A DNA stretch of 64,000 bases, taken from Propioniciclava tarda. GTDB taxonomy: Bacteria > Actinomycetota > Actinomycetes > Propionibacteriales > Propionibacteriaceae. Location: NCBI RefSeq assembly GCF_900182665.1, contig NZ_FXTL01000001.1:62001-126000 (forward strand), written 5' to 3'. This document shows, one piece after another, positions 19,566 through 38,528 of the stretch; the first letter of the stretch is position 1, and every line of letters starts with the position of its first letter. A program made the translations under genes and the position numbers. The notes under the pieces are model-generated. The model had not been told where the DNA came from and did no database searches. It saw only the letters and a list, made by a program, of their open reading frames with translations.

Positions 19566-19588
19566 CGGCGTCCGATCGCTGGACGCCG
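19566..19588 (-). terminator. Hairpin made of an inverted GGACGC pair after fruK
   Basis: CGGCGTCC and GGACGCCG pair around the loop GATCGCT, 9 bases after the fruK stop. It is built from two opposed copies of the window's abundant word. Confidence 0.5.
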
Positions 19589-19596
19589 ACGCCCGC

Positions 19597-20601
19597 TCAG
19601 CTCAGGGCCCGGACCCGCGCCTGCTCCGGGTGGGCGTCCTCGCGGCGGGGGAGCGTGCTGCCGGGCAGCCCCGCCGCCGCCGAGCCATAGGCGACCGCGG
19701 ACGCCAGGCAGGCGTCCGGCGCCGCCCCGCGGACCTCGGCCAGGATGAACCCGGCCACCGACGAGTCACCAGCGCCGACCGTGCTCTTCACGTCGACCTT
19801 CGGCGCCGTCGAGTACCAAGCCCCGGACGCGTTGACGAGCACCGCCCCCGCGCCGCCGAGCGTCACCATGACGTTCGCGATACCGCGGCGCTGCAGCGTG
19901 CGGGCGGCCGCGACGATGGCGTCCAGGTCGCCGGCCTTGGCGGACGCCTCGAAGGCGGCCGCGTCCCCTCCGGTCAGCTGCGCCAGCTCGTCGCTGTTGG
20001 GCTTGATGAGATCGAAGGACGCCTCCGGTAGCGCGTCCAGGACGGCGTCCAGGGCGGCGTCCGAGGTGTCGATCGCGATCTTGCAGCCGAAGGGCTTGAT
20101 CCGGCGGATCAGCGTCGCGTACCAATCGTCCGGAGCGCCGGGCGGCAGCGAGCCGGACAACACCACCCAGGCAGCCTCATCGCGGGTGTAGCCGCTGTCG
20201 GGCCATCGGGGGACGTTCGCGCACAGCTGCACGAGCTTGTCCGAGGCAGCGGCGAGGTCGTCCGCTGACAGAACCGGGCCGGGTTCGTTGATCTTGGTGG
20301 TGGTGCCGTCGGGCTCGGTGATCGTGGTGTTGGTGCGCGGCCGATGCGCCGCCTTCCCGGAGCCCACGAGCATGTTCTCGTTCATGCGCTCGTCCAGCAT
20401 GGCGCTGTAGCCCTCGTTCTCGAACGGCAGGGCCGCGACCGTCAAGATCCCGGACGCCGACGTGACGATCGCGACGTTCACGCCCTTGCCGGCCGCCTGT
20501 TCGATGACGGACGCCGCGCGCTGCACCTCGCCGCGCTCCAGGGGGCCCTCGAGGACGACCGTCCGGTCAATGCTCGGGTTCGCGGTGAAGGTGACGATCA
20601 T
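19597..20601 (-). CDS. fruK: 1-phosphofructokinase
   Basis: A 334-residue PfkB-family kinase phosphorylating fructose-1-phosphate to the 1,6-bisphosphate. It begins MIVTFTANPSIDRTVVL, with the AAGKGVNVA sugar-binding motif near residue 36. PNSDELAQLTGG is near 203. The anion-hole and catalytic signature STVGAGDSSVAGFI lies near 271, with Asp277 as base. Family and length are right. Its start overlaps the fruR stop by 4 bases. Fructose-1-phosphate would come from a PTS permease that is not in the window. Confidence 0.93.
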   Translation of the reverse strand: MIVTFTANPSIDRTVVLEGPLERGEVQRAASVIEQAAGKGVNVAIVTSASGILTVAALPFENEGYSAMLDERMNENMLVGSGKAAHRPRTNTTITEPDGTTTKINEPGPVLSADDLAAASDKLVQLCANVPRWPDSGYTRDEAAWVVLSGSLPPGAPDDWYATLIRRIKPFGCKIAIDTSDAALDAVLDALPEASFDLIKPNSDELAQLTGGDAAAFEASAKAGDLDAIVAAARTLQRRGIANVMVTLGGAGAVLVNASGAWYSTAPKVDVKSTVGAGDSSVAGFILAEVRGAAPDACLASAVAYGSAAAGLPGSTLPRREDAHPEQARVRALS

Positions 20602-32904: not shown

Positions 32905-34509
32905 ATGACCGATTCACTCACCACCTCACGCCGTGGCTTCCTGAAGCTGGTCGGCGTCATGGGGGTGGCGTCCGCGTTCGCGGGCACCCTCTCCGCTTGC
33001 GGCACCAAGCCCGGCGACCGAACCACGACTGGCGGTGGAGCGGCCAATGCGGCGGGCACCATCACGGCCGCCATCTCGTACGAGCTGGGGACCAACGGGT
33101 TCGATCCCATGACGACGTCGGCCGCCCTGACGCTGGCCGCCAACTGGCACACCATGGAGGGTCTCACCGAGATCCTGCCCAGCGGCAACCGAGACGTGTA
33201 CGCCGCGCTCGGCAAGGACCTGCCCAAGAAGATCGACGACACCACCTACGAGGTCACCTTGCGCGACGGCGCCGTCTTCCACAACGGCTCGCCCGTGACC
33301 ACGGACGACGTCGTCTACAGCTTCACCCGCGTGATGGACCCGGCCAGCAAGTCGCTGTACGCGCAGTTCATCACCTTCATCTCGGCCGTGGAGAAGAAGG
33401 ACGACAAGACCGTCACCATCAAGCTGAAGTACCCCTTCTCGCTCGTCGCCGAGCGCATCTCGGTCGTCAAGATCGTCCCGAAGGCGGCCGCGACCGCGGA
33501 CGCCAAGGCCTTCGACGCCAACCCCGTCGGCACCGGCCCCTGGAAGATGACCGACAACTCGGCCACGTCCAAGCAGATCGTCTTCGAGAAGAACACGGCC
33601 TACACGGGGCCGCGTCCGGCCAAGGCCGCGAAGATGACCTGGAAGGTCATGCCCGACGACGCCACGCGCATGAACGCGTTGACGTCCAAGGCCGTCCAGG
33701 CCATGGATCTCGTACCGGACCTGTCCATCGAGACCCTCAAGGCGTCCGCTGCCGTCGAACAGGCCCAGGGCTTCGCGCTGCTGTTCGCGATGTTCAACTG
33801 CGGCTCCGCGCCGTTCAACAACGTCAAGAACCGACAGGCGTTCCTCTACGCCATCGACATGGAGAAGGTCGTCAAGACCGCCTACCTGGGCAACGCGACC
33901 CCGGCCACGTGCTTCGTCCAGGACACGCACCCGGCCTACAAGAAGGCCAAGACGGTCTACGCCTTCGATCAGGCCAAGGCCAAGGCGCTGTTCGCCGAGA
34001 CCGGGCTGACCAAAATCCGGCTGCTGTGCACCGACCACGCTTGGGTCAAGAAGGCCACGCCGATCATCAAGGAGTCGCTCGAGGCCGCCGGCCTGTCCGT
34101 CGAGTTCGCCGAGAAGAAGTCGGCCGACGTCTACAACACGATCGACGGCAAGCCCGAGGCCTACGACGCCGTCATCGCTCCCGGCGACCCGTCGGTCTTC
34201 GGTTCGGACGCCGACCTGCTGATGCGCTGGTGGTACACCAACGACGTCTGGACCGACAAGCGCATGCACTGGAAGGGCCAGCCCGCCTGCACCGAGGTCG
34301 CCACCAAGTTGGACGCCGCCGCGAAGCAGCCCGCCGACGCCCAGAAGACCACGTGGGGCGAGGTCTTCGACCTGCTGTCCGCCGAGGTCCCGCTGTACCC
34401 GCTGTTCCACCGCAAGTCCACGACGGGCTACGACAAGACCACCCTGGTCGACTTCAAGCCGATCGCGCTGACCGGCCTGTCGTTCGTCGACGTCGGTAGC
34501 ACCAAGTAG
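32905..34509 (+). CDS. ABC transporter substrate-binding lipoprotein (family 5)
   Basis: A 534-residue solute-binding protein of the peptide/opine family. The N-terminus carries a Tat-like SRRGFLKL motif and a lipobox (GTLSAC), so it is an exported lipoprotein. Binding-protein segments include DVVYSFTRVMDPASKSLYAQ and NPVGTGPWKMTDN. Context with nanA, nanK, nanE and sialidase makes sialic acid or a sialoside the likely ligand, as in SatA-type systems, although the family also binds peptides. AGGAGGA lies 8 bases before ATG 32905. A hairpin separates it from the permeases, which could raise its relative expression. Confidence 0.87.
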   Translation: MTDSLTTSRRGFLKLVGVMGVASAFAGTLSACGTKPGDRTTTGGGAANAAGTITAAISYELGTNGFDPMTTSAALTLAANWHTMEGLTEILPSGNRDVYAALGKDLPKKIDDTTYEVTLRDGAVFHNGSPVTTDDVVYSFTRVMDPASKSLYAQFITFISAVEKKDDKTVTIKLKYPFSLVAERISVVKIVPKAAATADAKAFDANPVGTGPWKMTDNSATSKQIVFEKNTAYTGPRPAKAAKMTWKVMPDDATRMNALTSKAVQAMDLVPDLSIETLKASAAVEQAQGFALLFAMFNCGSAPFNNVKNRQAFLYAIDMEKVVKTAYLGNATPATCFVQDTHPAYKKAKTVYAFDQAKAKALFAETGLTKIRLLCTDHAWVKKATPIIKESLEAAGLSVEFAEKKSADVYNTIDGKPEAYDAVIAPGDPSVFGSDADLLMRWWYTNDVWTDKRMHWKGQPACTEVATKLDAAAKQPADAQKTTWGEVFDLLSAEVPLYPLFHRKSTTGYDKTTLVDFKPIALTGLSFVDVGSTK

Positions 34510-34514
34510 GCGCA

Positions 34515-34545
34515 GCAGGGCGGACGCCGACGGCGTCCGCCCTGC
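34515..34545 (+). terminator. Perfect hairpin of inverted GGACGCC words
   Basis: GCAGGGCGGACGCC pairs perfectly over 14 bp with GGCGTCCGCCCTGC around GAC, 5 bases after the stop. It is formed by two opposed copies of the abundant word, as uptake-sequence pairs do in Neisseria and Haemophilus terminators. Confidence 0.75.
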
Positions 34546-34569
34546 ACCCGCCACGCCTGCGGCCCCCGC

Positions 34570-34740
34570 CGAACCCCCTGGGCCTGTCGAGGACTCGGTC
34601 CCTTCGACAGGCTCAGGGATCGGAACTCGACTCTGGGTTCGGACGTCGACTCTGGGATCGGCAGGTGGCTGAGCCTGTAGGCCCGACAGGCTCAGGGAAC
34701 CAGCGCCGAGTCCGGACCTTGGCTGAGCCTTCTGGTCCCC
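34570..34740. repeat. Cluster of CTTCGACAGGCTCAGGG repeats
   Basis: CCTTCGACAGGCTCAGGGAT (34601), CCCGACAGGCTCAGGGAACC (34682) and inverted GGCTGAGCCT words (34670, 34722) fill most of the 264-base gap between the binding protein and permease. It is the same family as near 18141. No gene here. Confidence 0.6.
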
Positions 34741-34773: not shown

Positions 34774-35739
34774 GTGACTACCTTGCTGCGTCTCATCGGA
34801 CGCCGACTCGTGGCCTTTCCGATCATGGTGCTCGGGGTGACGTTTCTCGTCTTCTTCGTGATGTCGTTCTCGCCCGCCGACCCGGCGCGGCTCGCGCTCG
34901 GTGAGTCGGCGTCCACCGAAGCCTTGCAGCAGTACCGCATCGACTACGGGCTCGATCAGCCGCTGCTCATCCGTTACGGGCTGTTCCTCGCAGGGTTGGT
35001 AAGGGGCGATCTGGGCACGAGTGCCGGCAACGTGCCTGTCACCGAGTTCGTCGCGAAGGCGTTCCCGATCACGCTGCAGTTGACGTTCGTCGGCCTGCTG
35101 ATCGCGGTGGTGTTGTCGGTCACCCTCGGCGTCATCGCCGCCCTGTTCCGGGACCGTTGGCCCGATCAGCTGATCCGGGTGCTGTCGATCGCATCGCTGG
35201 CGACGCCGTCGTTCTGGCTGGCGATCCTGTTGATCCAGTGGCTGTCGACCGTGCCGGGCGGCGCCGGTCTCTACCCGGCTGTCGTCTCCCAATGGGTGCC
35301 GTTCGCCGAGGACCCGGGCATCTACATCAACAACATCACCCTGCCGGCGCTGGCCTTGGCGATCCCGGTCTCGGGCTCGCTCACCCGAGTCGTCCGGACG
35401 TCGATGGTCGAAGAGCTCGACCGCGACTACGTGCGGACGGCGATCGGCGCGGGCATCCCGAAGCACATCGTCATCGCCCGCAACGTGCTGCGGAACGCGC
35501 TGATCACCCCGATCACCGTGCTTGGACTGCGGGTCGGCTACCTGATGGGTGGCGCGGTGATCATCGAGATCATCTTCAACATCCAGGCCATGGGCCAGCT
35601 GATCCTCGACGGCGTGACCCGCAACGACGTGTACCTCGTCCAGGGCGTGACGCTGACGGTCGCCATCGCCTTCATCATCATCAACATCATCGTGGACCTG
35701 CTGTACGTCCTCGTGAACCCGCGGATCAGGACGGTCTGA
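34774..35739 (+). CDS. ABC transporter permease (DppB type)
   Basis: A 321-residue inner-membrane permease with six helices. The first is VAFPIMVLGVTFLVFFVMSF. The EAA loop is YVRTAIGAGIPKHIVIARNVLRNAL near residue 222, the ATPase contact. It has the periplasmic loop and ALRVGYLMGGAVIIEIIF-like end typical of DppB. GTG start at 34774 with GGAGGAA upstream. The next gene begins 1 base after its stop. Predicted to import sialic acid with the neighbouring subunits. Confidence 0.9.
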   Translation: MTTLLRLIGRRLVAFPIMVLGVTFLVFFVMSFSPADPARLALGESASTEALQQYRIDYGLDQPLLIRYGLFLAGLVRGDLGTSAGNVPVTEFVAKAFPITLQLTFVGLLIAVVLSVTLGVIAALFRDRWPDQLIRVLSIASLATPSFWLAILLIQWLSTVPGGAGLYPAVVSQWVPFAEDPGIYINNITLPALALAIPVSGSLTRVVRTSMVEELDRDYVRTAIGAGIPKHIVIARNVLRNALITPITVLGLRVGYLMGGAVIIEIIFNIQAMGQLILDGVTRNDVYLVQGVTLTVAIAFIIINIIVDLLYVLVNPRIRTV

Positions 35740-35740
35740 C

Positions 35741-37702
35741 ATGCGTCGCACCCTGACAGAACGCCTCTCCGAGCCGGGACTGCGCCTCCGCGCCCTGCCG
35801 CTGTCGTCCAAGATCGCCCTCGGCGTCCTGGCGCTCGTGGTGCTGCTGGCCATCTTCGCGCCGCTCATCGCTCGGTTCGATCCGCTGGCATCCGGGACGC
35901 CGGCGCTGCCGCCGGACGGCGTCCACTGGTTCGGAACCGACATCATCGGACGCGACATCTTCGCCCGCGTCGCCTTCGGCACCCGGTCCTCGCTGGTGAT
36001 CGGCCTGTGCGCGACGTTGGTCGCGTTGGCGGCGGCCGCGGTGCTCGGCTCGATCGCCGCGACCGCCGGCAAGGCGGTCTCCGAGGTGCTGATGCGCGTC
36101 CTCGACATCGTCATGAGCTTCCCGGGTATCGCGCTGGCGGCGGTGTTCGTCGCGGTGGCCGGGTCGTCGATTCCGGTGCTGATCTTCGCGATCGCGTTCC
36201 TGTACACCCCGCAGCTGACCCGGGTCGTCCGGGCGAACGTGCTGGCCCAGTTCGGTGAGGACTACGTCTCCGCGACCCGCGTCATAGGCGCCGGGACGGC
36301 CCGCATCCTGATCAAGCACGTCGCCCGCAACTGCCTGGCGCCGATCCTGGTCTTCGCGACCGTGCTCGTCGCGGACGCGATCGTCTTCGAGGCGTCCCTG
36401 TCGTTCATCAACGCCGGCGTGAAGCCGCCCGAGCCGTCCTGGGGCAACGTGCTGGCAGACGGCAAGCAGCTGCTGCTGATCGGCGGCTGGTGGGCGACGT
36501 TCTTCCCGGGCCTGGCGATCCTGATCACGGTGCTGTCGCTGAACATCTTGTCCGAGGGCATGACGGACGCCCTCGTGTCGCCGAAACTGCGCCGCAAGGT
36601 CAAGCTGGACGACCCTGTCGAGGCGTCCGTGATCGCCGTCGCGCCCGCCTTGGCGGCCAAGCTCGACATCGCTGAGGTTCCGCTGGCGGATCGTCTGGAC
36701 GCCCTCGCTCGCGCCGAATCAGCGCGGGGCGGACGCCTCGTCTACTCCGGCGACGCCGCGCCGCTGCTCGAGGTCAAGAACCTGTCGATCCGCTTCCCGG
36801 ACGCCCACGGCGACGTCGATGTGGTTGACCACGTGTCGTTCTCGGTTCGTCCGGGCGAGACGATGGGACTGGTCGGTGAGTCGGGCTGCGGCAAGTCGAT
36901 CACGTCGATGGCGATCATGGGGCTGCTGCCGAAGACGGCGGTGCTGTCGGGGGAGATCCTGTTCGAGGGCACCGACCTGTTGAAGCTCTCGCCGAAGGAG
37001 CACAACGAGCTGCGCGGCCACGAGATCGCGATGATCTACCAGGATGCCTTGAGCTCGCTGAACCCGTCGATGTTGATCAAGGCGCAGCTGAAGCAGCTGA
37101 CCTCGCGCGGCGGTCAGCGGACGGCCGAGGACCTGCTCGAGTTGGTGGGGCTCGACCCCGTCCGGACGTTGGCGTCCTACCCGCACGAGCTGTCCGGCGG
37201 GCAGCGGCAGCGGGTGCTGATCGCCATGGCGCTGACCCGTAACCCGAAGCTGGTCATCGCTGACGAGCCGACGACGGCGCTGGACGTCACCGTGCAGGCC
37301 CAGGTCATCGACCTGCTCAACGGCCTGCGCGAGAAACTCGGCTTCGCGATGGTGTTCGTGTCGCACGACCTGGCGTTGGTCGCCCAGGTCGCCCACCGGA
37401 TCACCGTCATGTACGCCGGCCAGGTCGTCGAGACCGGCCCCACGGCCGAGATCCTGACCGATCCCCGACATGAGTACACCCGCGGGCTGCTGGGCGCGGT
37501 GCTGTCGATCGAGTCCAACAACGGACGCCTCCACCAGGTGCCCGGTGTCGTCCCGTCGCCGCGGGAGTTCGTTGCCGGTGACCGGTTCGCCCCGCGCTCG
37601 TCGAACCCGACGGTCGGGCTCGATGTGCGTCCTGAGATGGTCACCGTGCCGGGAACCGAGCACGCCTGGGCCCGTCACCTCGAACGCGTGAAGGAGGCCT
37701 GA
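35741..37702 (+). CDS. Fused ABC permease (DppC) and ATPase (DppD)
   Basis: A 653-residue fusion. Residues 1-285 are a DppC permease: IALGVLALVVLLAIFAPLI, WFGTDIIGRDIFARVAFG, then the EAA loop YVSATRVIGAGTARILIKHV. After a linker, residues 345-610 are a DppD ATPase: Walker A GESGCGKS near 379, Q-loop YQDALSSLNP, signature LSGGQRQR near 484, Walker B LVIADEPTTALD and HDLALVAQ. An oligopeptide-type C-terminal motif follows. In SatABCD sialic acid importers a permease-ATPase fusion is, from memory, also seen, supporting the substrate assignment. Confidence 0.93.
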   Translation: MRRTLTERLSEPGLRLRALPLSSKIALGVLALVVLLAIFAPLIARFDPLASGTPALPPDGVHWFGTDIIGRDIFARVAFGTRSSLVIGLCATLVALAAAAVLGSIAATAGKAVSEVLMRVLDIVMSFPGIALAAVFVAVAGSSIPVLIFAIAFLYTPQLTRVVRANVLAQFGEDYVSATRVIGAGTARILIKHVARNCLAPILVFATVLVADAIVFEASLSFINAGVKPPEPSWGNVLADGKQLLLIGGWWATFFPGLAILITVLSLNILSEGMTDALVSPKLRRKVKLDDPVEASVIAVAPALAAKLDIAEVPLADRLDALARAESARGGRLVYSGDAAPLLEVKNLSIRFPDAHGDVDVVDHVSFSVRPGETMGLVGESGCGKSITSMAIMGLLPKTAVLSGEILFEGTDLLKLSPKEHNELRGHEIAMIYQDALSSLNPSMLIKAQLKQLTSRGGQRTAEDLLELVGLDPVRTLASYPHELSGGQRQRVLIAMALTRNPKLVIADEPTTALDVTVQAQVIDLLNGLREKLGFAMVFVSHDLALVAQVAHRITVMYAGQVVETGPTAEILTDPRHEYTRGLLGAVLSIESNNGRLHQVPGVVPSPREFVAGDRFAPRSSNPTVGLDVRPEMVTVPGTEHAWARHLERVKEA

Positions 37703-37703
37703 C

Positions 37704-38528
37704 GTGAGCGTCCAGACCCAGCCCCAGGACCAGGCCGCGGCGTCGGCGTCCCCTGTGATTGAACTGCGCGAGGTGCGCGTCGTGCACAAGACGCGGACCG
37801 GGGGACTGTTCCGTCCGGGGCTCGTCAAGGCCGTCGACGGCGTCGATTTCACCATCAGCCGTGGCGAGACCGTGGGCATCGTGGGGGAGTCCGGCTGCGG
37901 CAAGACGACCCTCGCGCGGGTGCTCGTCGGGCTGCAGCGACCGACGTCCGGGGAGGTGCTGTTCCGCGGACGCCCCCTGCGCTACACCGCCCCCGAGCGG
38001 CGCGAGCTGGGGCGCGCGGTGTCGGTGGTCTTCCAGGACCCGGCGACGGCGCTGAACCCACGCATGATCGTGCGCGAGCAGCTGCTCGATCCGCTGATCG
38101 TCCACGGCATCGGGACGCCGGAGTCGCGGGACGCTCGCGTCCGGGAGTTGATCGGGCTGGTCGGCCTGCCGCCCTCGGCCCTCGAGGTGTTGCCGCGGCA
38201 GATCTCGGGCGGGCAACGGCAGCGGGTGGCGATCGCCCGGGCGCTGGCGTTGGAGCCCGACGTGATCGTCGCGGACGAGCCGACCTCGGCCCTCGACGTG
38301 TCGGTGCGCGCGCAGGTGCTGAACCTGCTCACTGACCTCAAGGAGGGCCTCGGCCTCGGCATGATCTTCATCAGCCACGACATCTCGACGGTGCGCTTCG
38401 TCGCCGACCGGATGGCCGTGATGAACGCCGGGAAGATCGTCGAGACCGGCCCCTCGGACGCCATTTTTGCCAGCCCCCAGCACGACTACACGCGGACGCT
38501 GCTCAGCGCCGTCCCCACCCTGCTCTGA
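37704..38528 (+). CDS. ABC transporter ATPase (DppF type)
   Basis: A 274-residue ATPase. Walker A GESGCGKTTLARVLVG near residue 59, Q-loop VVFQDPATALNPR, signature ISGGQRQRVAIARAL near 169, Walker B VIVADEPTSALD and H-loop ISHDISTVRFVADR. It pairs with the ATPase half of the fused subunit. GTG start 1 base after the preceding stop, with AAGGAG inside the end of that gene. It ends 31 bases before the lyase gene. Confidence 0.93.
   Translation: MSVQTQPQDQAAASASPVIELREVRVVHKTRTGGLFRPGLVKAVDGVDFTISRGETVGIVGESGCGKTTLARVLVGLQRPTSGEVLFRGRPLRYTAPERRELGRAVSVVFQDPATALNPRMIVREQLLDPLIVHGIGTPESRDARVRELIGLVGLPPSALEVLPRQISGGQRQRVAIARALALEPDVIVADEPTSALDVSVRAQVLNLLTDLKEGLGLGMIFISHDISTVRFVADRMAVMNAGKIVETGPSDAIFASPQHDYTRTLLSAVPTLL

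Follow-up and report, generated by a model that had tools for sequence, protein, structure and literature searches.

The window analysed here is a 64,000 nt stretch of the Propioniciclava tarda genome and contains, on its plus strand, an operon for an ABC importer. The gene for the solute-binding protein (SBP_bac_5, 32905..34509) stands first and is followed, in order and on the same strand, by a hairpin (34515..34545), a permease gene (BPD_transp_1, 34774..35739), a gene for a permease fused to an ATPase (BPD_transp_1 + ABC_tran + oligo_HPY, 35741..37702) and an ATPase gene (ABC_tran, 37704..38528). The start of the first permease gene was set at the GTG at 34774, behind a GGAGG identified by eye. 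The gap from the stop of the binding-protein (SBP) gene to this start is 264 nt long; in G003, the closest relative (84% protein identity), it measures about 81 nt. The region 34580-34700 within the gap contains a repeat with CTTCGACAGGCTCAG, an exact copy of which lies at 34602-34616; copies of this repeat number 56 in this genome, 32 in G007, 15 in G009, 7 in G001 and 0 in G003.

The hairpin begins 5 nt 3' of the stop of the SBP gene and is an exact palindrome, GCAGGGCGGACGCC-GAC-GGCGTCCGCCCTGC, with a perfect stem of 14 bp and a loop of three nucleotides, GAC. The 5' arm contains a forward copy of the heptamer GGACGCC (34522..34528, plus strand), and the 3' arm contains a second copy on the minus strand (34532..34538), which reads GGCGTCC on the plus strand. 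Folding of 34507-34572 as RNA gave -45.5 kcal/mol and a z of -4.61, and 0 of 200 dinucleotide shuffles were equally stable. The perfect 14-bp stem with GGACGCC opposite GGCGTCC that the earlier note had described directly after the binding-protein gene is confirmed. No U-tract, a feature of canonical intrinsic terminators, is present 3' of the 34515-34545 stem, where ACCCGCCACG comes next. The feature is annotated as a probable internal terminator or 3'-end protector.

A total of 80 loci with relatives of the binding protein was fetched, of which 79 were usable, and the 70 nt after each SBP stop were folded. The locus set overlaps the genome set: L069 matches G003, L070 matches G011 and L101 matches G006 exactly in the stretch behind the SBP stop. 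In this stretch G011 does not differ from Propioniciclava flava either, and the name of the genus was inferred from that match. A z of -2 or below was found after the SBP stop in 60 of the 79 actinobacterial loci (median -3.48), with 19 falling short of that value, and after the stop of the first permease gene in 0 of 76 (median +0.53). In the paired comparison the SBP stop had the lower z 68 times out of 76 (Wilcoxon p 1.7e-12); permease stops often abut the next gene, and this control therefore differs from the SBP stops in more than function. Plain energies of -20 kcal/mol or below were frequent at both sites (69/79 SBP stops, 52/76 permease stops), so that only the comparison with shuffles separates the two.

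Within the genus, a strong hairpin follows the SBP stop in all nine members, counting the own genome, with 34 nt or more of sequence there; one of the nine (L157) was judged by eye, on 34 nt. With mononucleotide shuffles, eight members had a z of -3.3 to -6.8 after the SBP stop, and seven had one of -0.8 to +1.6 after that of the permease. The stem sequences vary between lineages, and the pair of opposed GGACGCC words is present in the SBP hairpin of two of the nine genus members and in 3 of all 79 loci. Among the loci with more than one word per kb, 3 of 11 have the pair in this hairpin, two of them Micropruina MAGs. The arms in G003 share GGGCGGAC and GTCCGCCC with the window, and their remaining parts have changed yet still pair, without the word; the alignment of G003 with the window matches the core of the 5' arm only, and the arms were compared from the sequences themselves. 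Such changes in arms that still pair are the signature of selection for pairing and position, and it is these two properties of the hairpin, not its sequence, that selection appears to keep.

The window has 335 copies of GGACGCC, where 41.6 would be expected, and the whole 2.97-Mb genome has 13,828, or about one every 215 bp; the reversed control occurs 1,180 times in the genome. Copies per kb number 5.0 in genes, 4.9 immediately past stops, 4.1 ahead of starts and 3.5 in the remaining intergenic DNA. In 978 sampled genes 4,547 copies were counted, 3.4 times the 1,342 (sd 32) obtained after synonymous-codon shuffling, and the excess over this shuffle was present in all six frame/strand combinations. 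GGACGCC is therefore a word at the level of DNA, and codon usage was ruled out as its cause by the same shuffle. The 12 other members of the genus that were searched contain 4,888 to 10,973 copies, and counts in the remaining 20 genomes of the family range from below the control to about five-fold over it. Between species of the genus the density differs by a factor of almost three. Outside the genus, one genus of the family (G028) has the word at about five-fold over the control.

Retention of the word was compared in stretches of the own genome aligned to G003 (76.6% identity) and to G001, with 7-mers of the same composition as controls. From the own genome to G003, 33.5% of the copies were kept exactly, versus 21.1% for the controls, 1 of 57 of which was as high; in the reverse direction 41.1% were kept, versus 20.7%. 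From the own genome to G001, 18.0% were kept, versus 17.5%, with 26 of 48 controls as high, and in the reverse direction 35.6%, versus 17.6%. These alignments show that copies of the word turn over fast, and they are not decisive between drive and selection. The genome encodes a protein of the Competence family (PF03772); PF03772 also matches in 10 of 14 control genomes. Among the papers listed by a full-text literature search for GGACGCC, no title was about a genome word, and among those listed by searches on uptake sequences and Actinobacteria no such word appeared in titles and the starts of abstracts; as the set searched includes few subscription papers, this is weak evidence of absence.

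The earlier note had seen in the hairpin the logic of Neisseria and Haemophilus, in which inverted pairs of uptake sequences serve as a terminator design. According to this reading, opposed uptake-like words would have been co-opted as the terminator stems of the genome, of which the word pair in the stem at 34515 would be one example. Gene ends were sampled from 53 stretches (1.06 Mb, 935 closed stops; an earlier pass used 33 stretches), with gene models from a simple in-house caller, and the intergenic control DNA may include missed genes. The 60 nt after stops contained 11 pairs of the form GGACGCC..GGCGTCC (3-20 nt apart), 2 in reverse order and 3 direct. The density of the first form was 0.352 per kb after stops (11 in 31.2 kb), 0.154 per kb in genes and 0.079 per kb in other intergenic DNA, and a rough expectation from the local word density was 3.4 pairs. 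The enrichment after stops for which the earlier note had proposed a test is thus present and speaks for co-option; it is mild, is confined to one orientation and would be produced by a hairpin-rich zone in a word-rich genome, which makes it insufficient for a terminator design.

Hairpins after stops were also compared with those in other intergenic DNA. Hairpins of -24 kcal/mol or below (a cut-off of the analyst's choice; -16, -20 and -28 were also computed) were found at 119 of 509 eligible stops, each with 60 nt folded, and in 87 of 1,292 other intergenic stretches. The word was present in both arms of 7/119 hairpins after stops versus 5/87 elsewhere, and in any arm or loop of 24/119 versus 22/87. 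The first of these shares was 11/235 versus 10/367 at -16, 9/168 versus 8/206 at -20 and, lower after stops, 6/85 versus 3/32 at -28; counted per folded stretch, word-pair hairpins numbered 7/509 after stops and 5/1,292 elsewhere. Perfect stems of at least 11 bp after stops contained the word in 3 of 29 cases (1.2 expected), and those of at least 9 bp in 6 of 43 (1.4 expected), compared with 28 of 120 inside genes (2.1 expected). Against 7-mers of the same composition after stops, the word made up 3/32 in stems of at least 11 bp, 6/47 in stems of at least 9 bp and 148/2,409 in the whole zone. The perfect stems after stops thus have a slight excess of the word at 9 bp, on small numbers. The strong hairpins of two word-rich relatives contained no word pair (0/35 in G003, 0/37 in G001), and pairs of the one orientation after stops numbered 1 in G003 and 0 in G001. 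Terminators may still favour the word weakly.

The order and position of close pairs were determined as well. Within 10 nt, 121 pairs were in the order +-, 58 in -+, 39 in ++ and 27 in --. Of the 121, 102 were intragenic (0.11 per kb); head-to-head gaps contained 8 (0.19 per kb), tandem gaps 7 (0.10 per kb) and tail-to-tail gaps 4 (0.14 per kb). The pairs are spread roughly in proportion to length and are not concentrated at gene ends. Inside genes, where no terminator is wanted, close +- copies are favoured and close direct copies are scarce (gap 0-10: 102 +-, 54 -+, 37 ++ and 20 --). Genome-wide, at 3-20 nt, 476 GGACGCC..GGCGTCC pairs and 240 + 237 direct pairs were counted, compared with estimates from word counts of about 289 opposed and 579 direct. 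The bias in the order of close pairs may tell how the word is recognised or spread. The chances are judged about even that in GGACGCC the genus has a genome-wide signal, hitherto undescribed, that is maintained at the level of DNA by drive or selection, whether uptake-like or tied to recombination or methylation; close opposed copies would then be favoured within genes for some cause that is not termination.

In the available portions of PMC1852404, terminators with at least one copy of the uptake sequence make up 54-57% in Neisseria and 16-29% in Pasteurellaceae, and the close inverted pairs of N. meningitidis are listed as 3 intragenic and 94 tail-to-tail. The share of any word in the strong hairpins after stops falls inside the range of the Pasteurellaceae and, like the predominance of the +- order, would agree with co-option, but the other hairpins of this genome reach an equal share. 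Since they carry the word as often, the shared logic proposed by the earlier note is not borne out. With both-arm shares also alike, with no pairs in the hairpins of the two relatives, with most +- pairs inside genes and with an SBP hairpin that lacks the word in 7 of 9 members of the genus, co-option of opposed words as terminator stems is regarded as improbable.

A second pair of opposed words (19566..19588, minus strand) is located 8 nt past the stop of a minus-strand gene for a PfkB-family sugar kinase (fruK-like, 19597..20601). GGCGTCC (19567-19573) precedes GGACGCC (19581-19587), an order opposite to that of the hairpin at 34515, and the stem has 8 bp. The pair that the earlier note reported after fruK is therefore present, but not as a distinguished structure: its fold did not exceed shuffles in stability (z -0.40, with 54 of 200 shuffles at least as stable), and none of 10 relatives with sequence after the fruK-like gene has a counterpart (z -1.2 to +1.2). 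As such a structure is missing from these relatives, the simplest account of the pair is that two common words met there, most likely by chance. The hairpin at 34515 could in principle be read in the same way, as two abundant words that fell opposed after a gene and formed a hairpin without a role, a reading with which the fruK pair and the abundance of opposed pairs at 3-20 nt throughout the genome agree. Its stem, however, measures 14 bp and not 7, and relatives have a hairpin with other stems at the same place, so that chance is a very improbable origin for it.

By its position, the hairpin separates the SBP gene from the permease and ATPase genes of the operon. It is proposed to be a partial internal terminator of the U-tract-less (I-shaped) type, which would limit transcription into the permease genes and thereby yield binding protein in excess of the membrane parts; it may in addition shield the binding-protein mRNA at its 3' end. 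The presence of GGACGCC and GGCGTCC in the stem is most likely happenstance, because the word is so frequent in this genome. Termination by the hairpin in this organism, its partial extent and the benefit in stoichiometry are each probable, and the explanation that joins them, a partial internal terminator giving an excess of binding protein, selected for pairing and place with the word as an incidental constituent, is considered likely.

An alternative has the hairpin leave the polymerase unaffected; it would then mark and protect the 3' end left on the binding-protein mRNA by processing or by Rho-dependent termination. The malE-malF REP hairpin of E. coli acts by mRNA protection; it has in common with the present hairpin its place between genes for a binding protein and a permease, and is distinguished by its membership in the REP sequence family. 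The lack of a U-tract at 34515-34545 is in line with such a role, as Rho-dependent termination and subsequent trimming of the 3' end up to the hairpin would give the same picture. Stems without U-tracts are usual in this genome: among 168 strong hairpins after stops (-20 or below), 80 lack any T in the 8 nt that follow, with some of the tails clipped by the 60-nt window. The authors of PMC8269248, in the portions available, allow Rho-terminated ends for the U-lacking class. Against this, the stem-loops of Clostridium that were tested, some of them low in U, did terminate transcription (PMC9045158, available text), and protection without termination is a possible but less probable role.

Partial termination, the preferred reading, has its closest precedent in Ruminiclostridium cellulolyticum, where, according to the available text of PMC9045158, stem-loops after SBP genes end transcription early and set the excess of binding protein, and each of the 16 stem-loops predicted at that place was capable of terminating transcription; for E. 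coli its authors report at least 15 candidate SBP stem-loops. No mention of Actinobacteria was found in that text. Together with the contrast between SBP and permease stops across the actinobacterial loci, this precedent makes the excess of binding protein over permeases, which the earlier note had suggested and which is predicted here, the best-supported part of that note.

Compared with the inverted-pair terminators of Neisseria and Pasteurellaceae (PMC1852404, available portions), the likeness consists of two opposed copies of a genome word that form a stem, here at one place; in this genome the word is not enriched in terminator-like hairpins over other hairpins, its close pairs are not concentrated at gene ends, and the 34515-34545 site has no A/T tails. 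GGACGCC is denser than the uptake sequences of the Neisseriaceae and Pasteurellaceae, which have 927 to 3,603 copies per genome among those compared in the sources available. The preference for +- pairs resembles a stronger bias of the same kind published for uptake sequences (PMC1852404, same portions), of which it is a weaker form, present inside genes. A genome may thus teem with a 7-bp word without using it as a terminator design, which removes a tempting analogy.

Streptomyces clavuligerus has structured 3' ends that lack U, described as the HS-U-lack class (PMC8269248, available portions); these I-shaped terminators and the present hairpin have in common a strong GC stem without a U-tract, and differ in that the ends were mapped experimentally in S. 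clavuligerus and are predicted here. The hairpin shares with the SBP terminators of R. cellulolyticum (PMC9045158, available text) a stem-loop right after the SBP gene and before the translocator genes, as well as a long GC-rich stem and a low U content after it. As in that system, it stands directly 3' of an SBP gene at the 5' end of the operon, at the end of that gene and not between the translocator genes. It is distinct in being actinobacterial, predicted from sequence, devoid of a U-rich tract and built in part from a genome word. The hairpin after the SBP gene of this type of ABC importer operon is conserved in place and not in sequence across Actinobacteria, which would extend a rule of stoichiometry that was demonstrated in Clostridia and has been suggested for E. 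coli.
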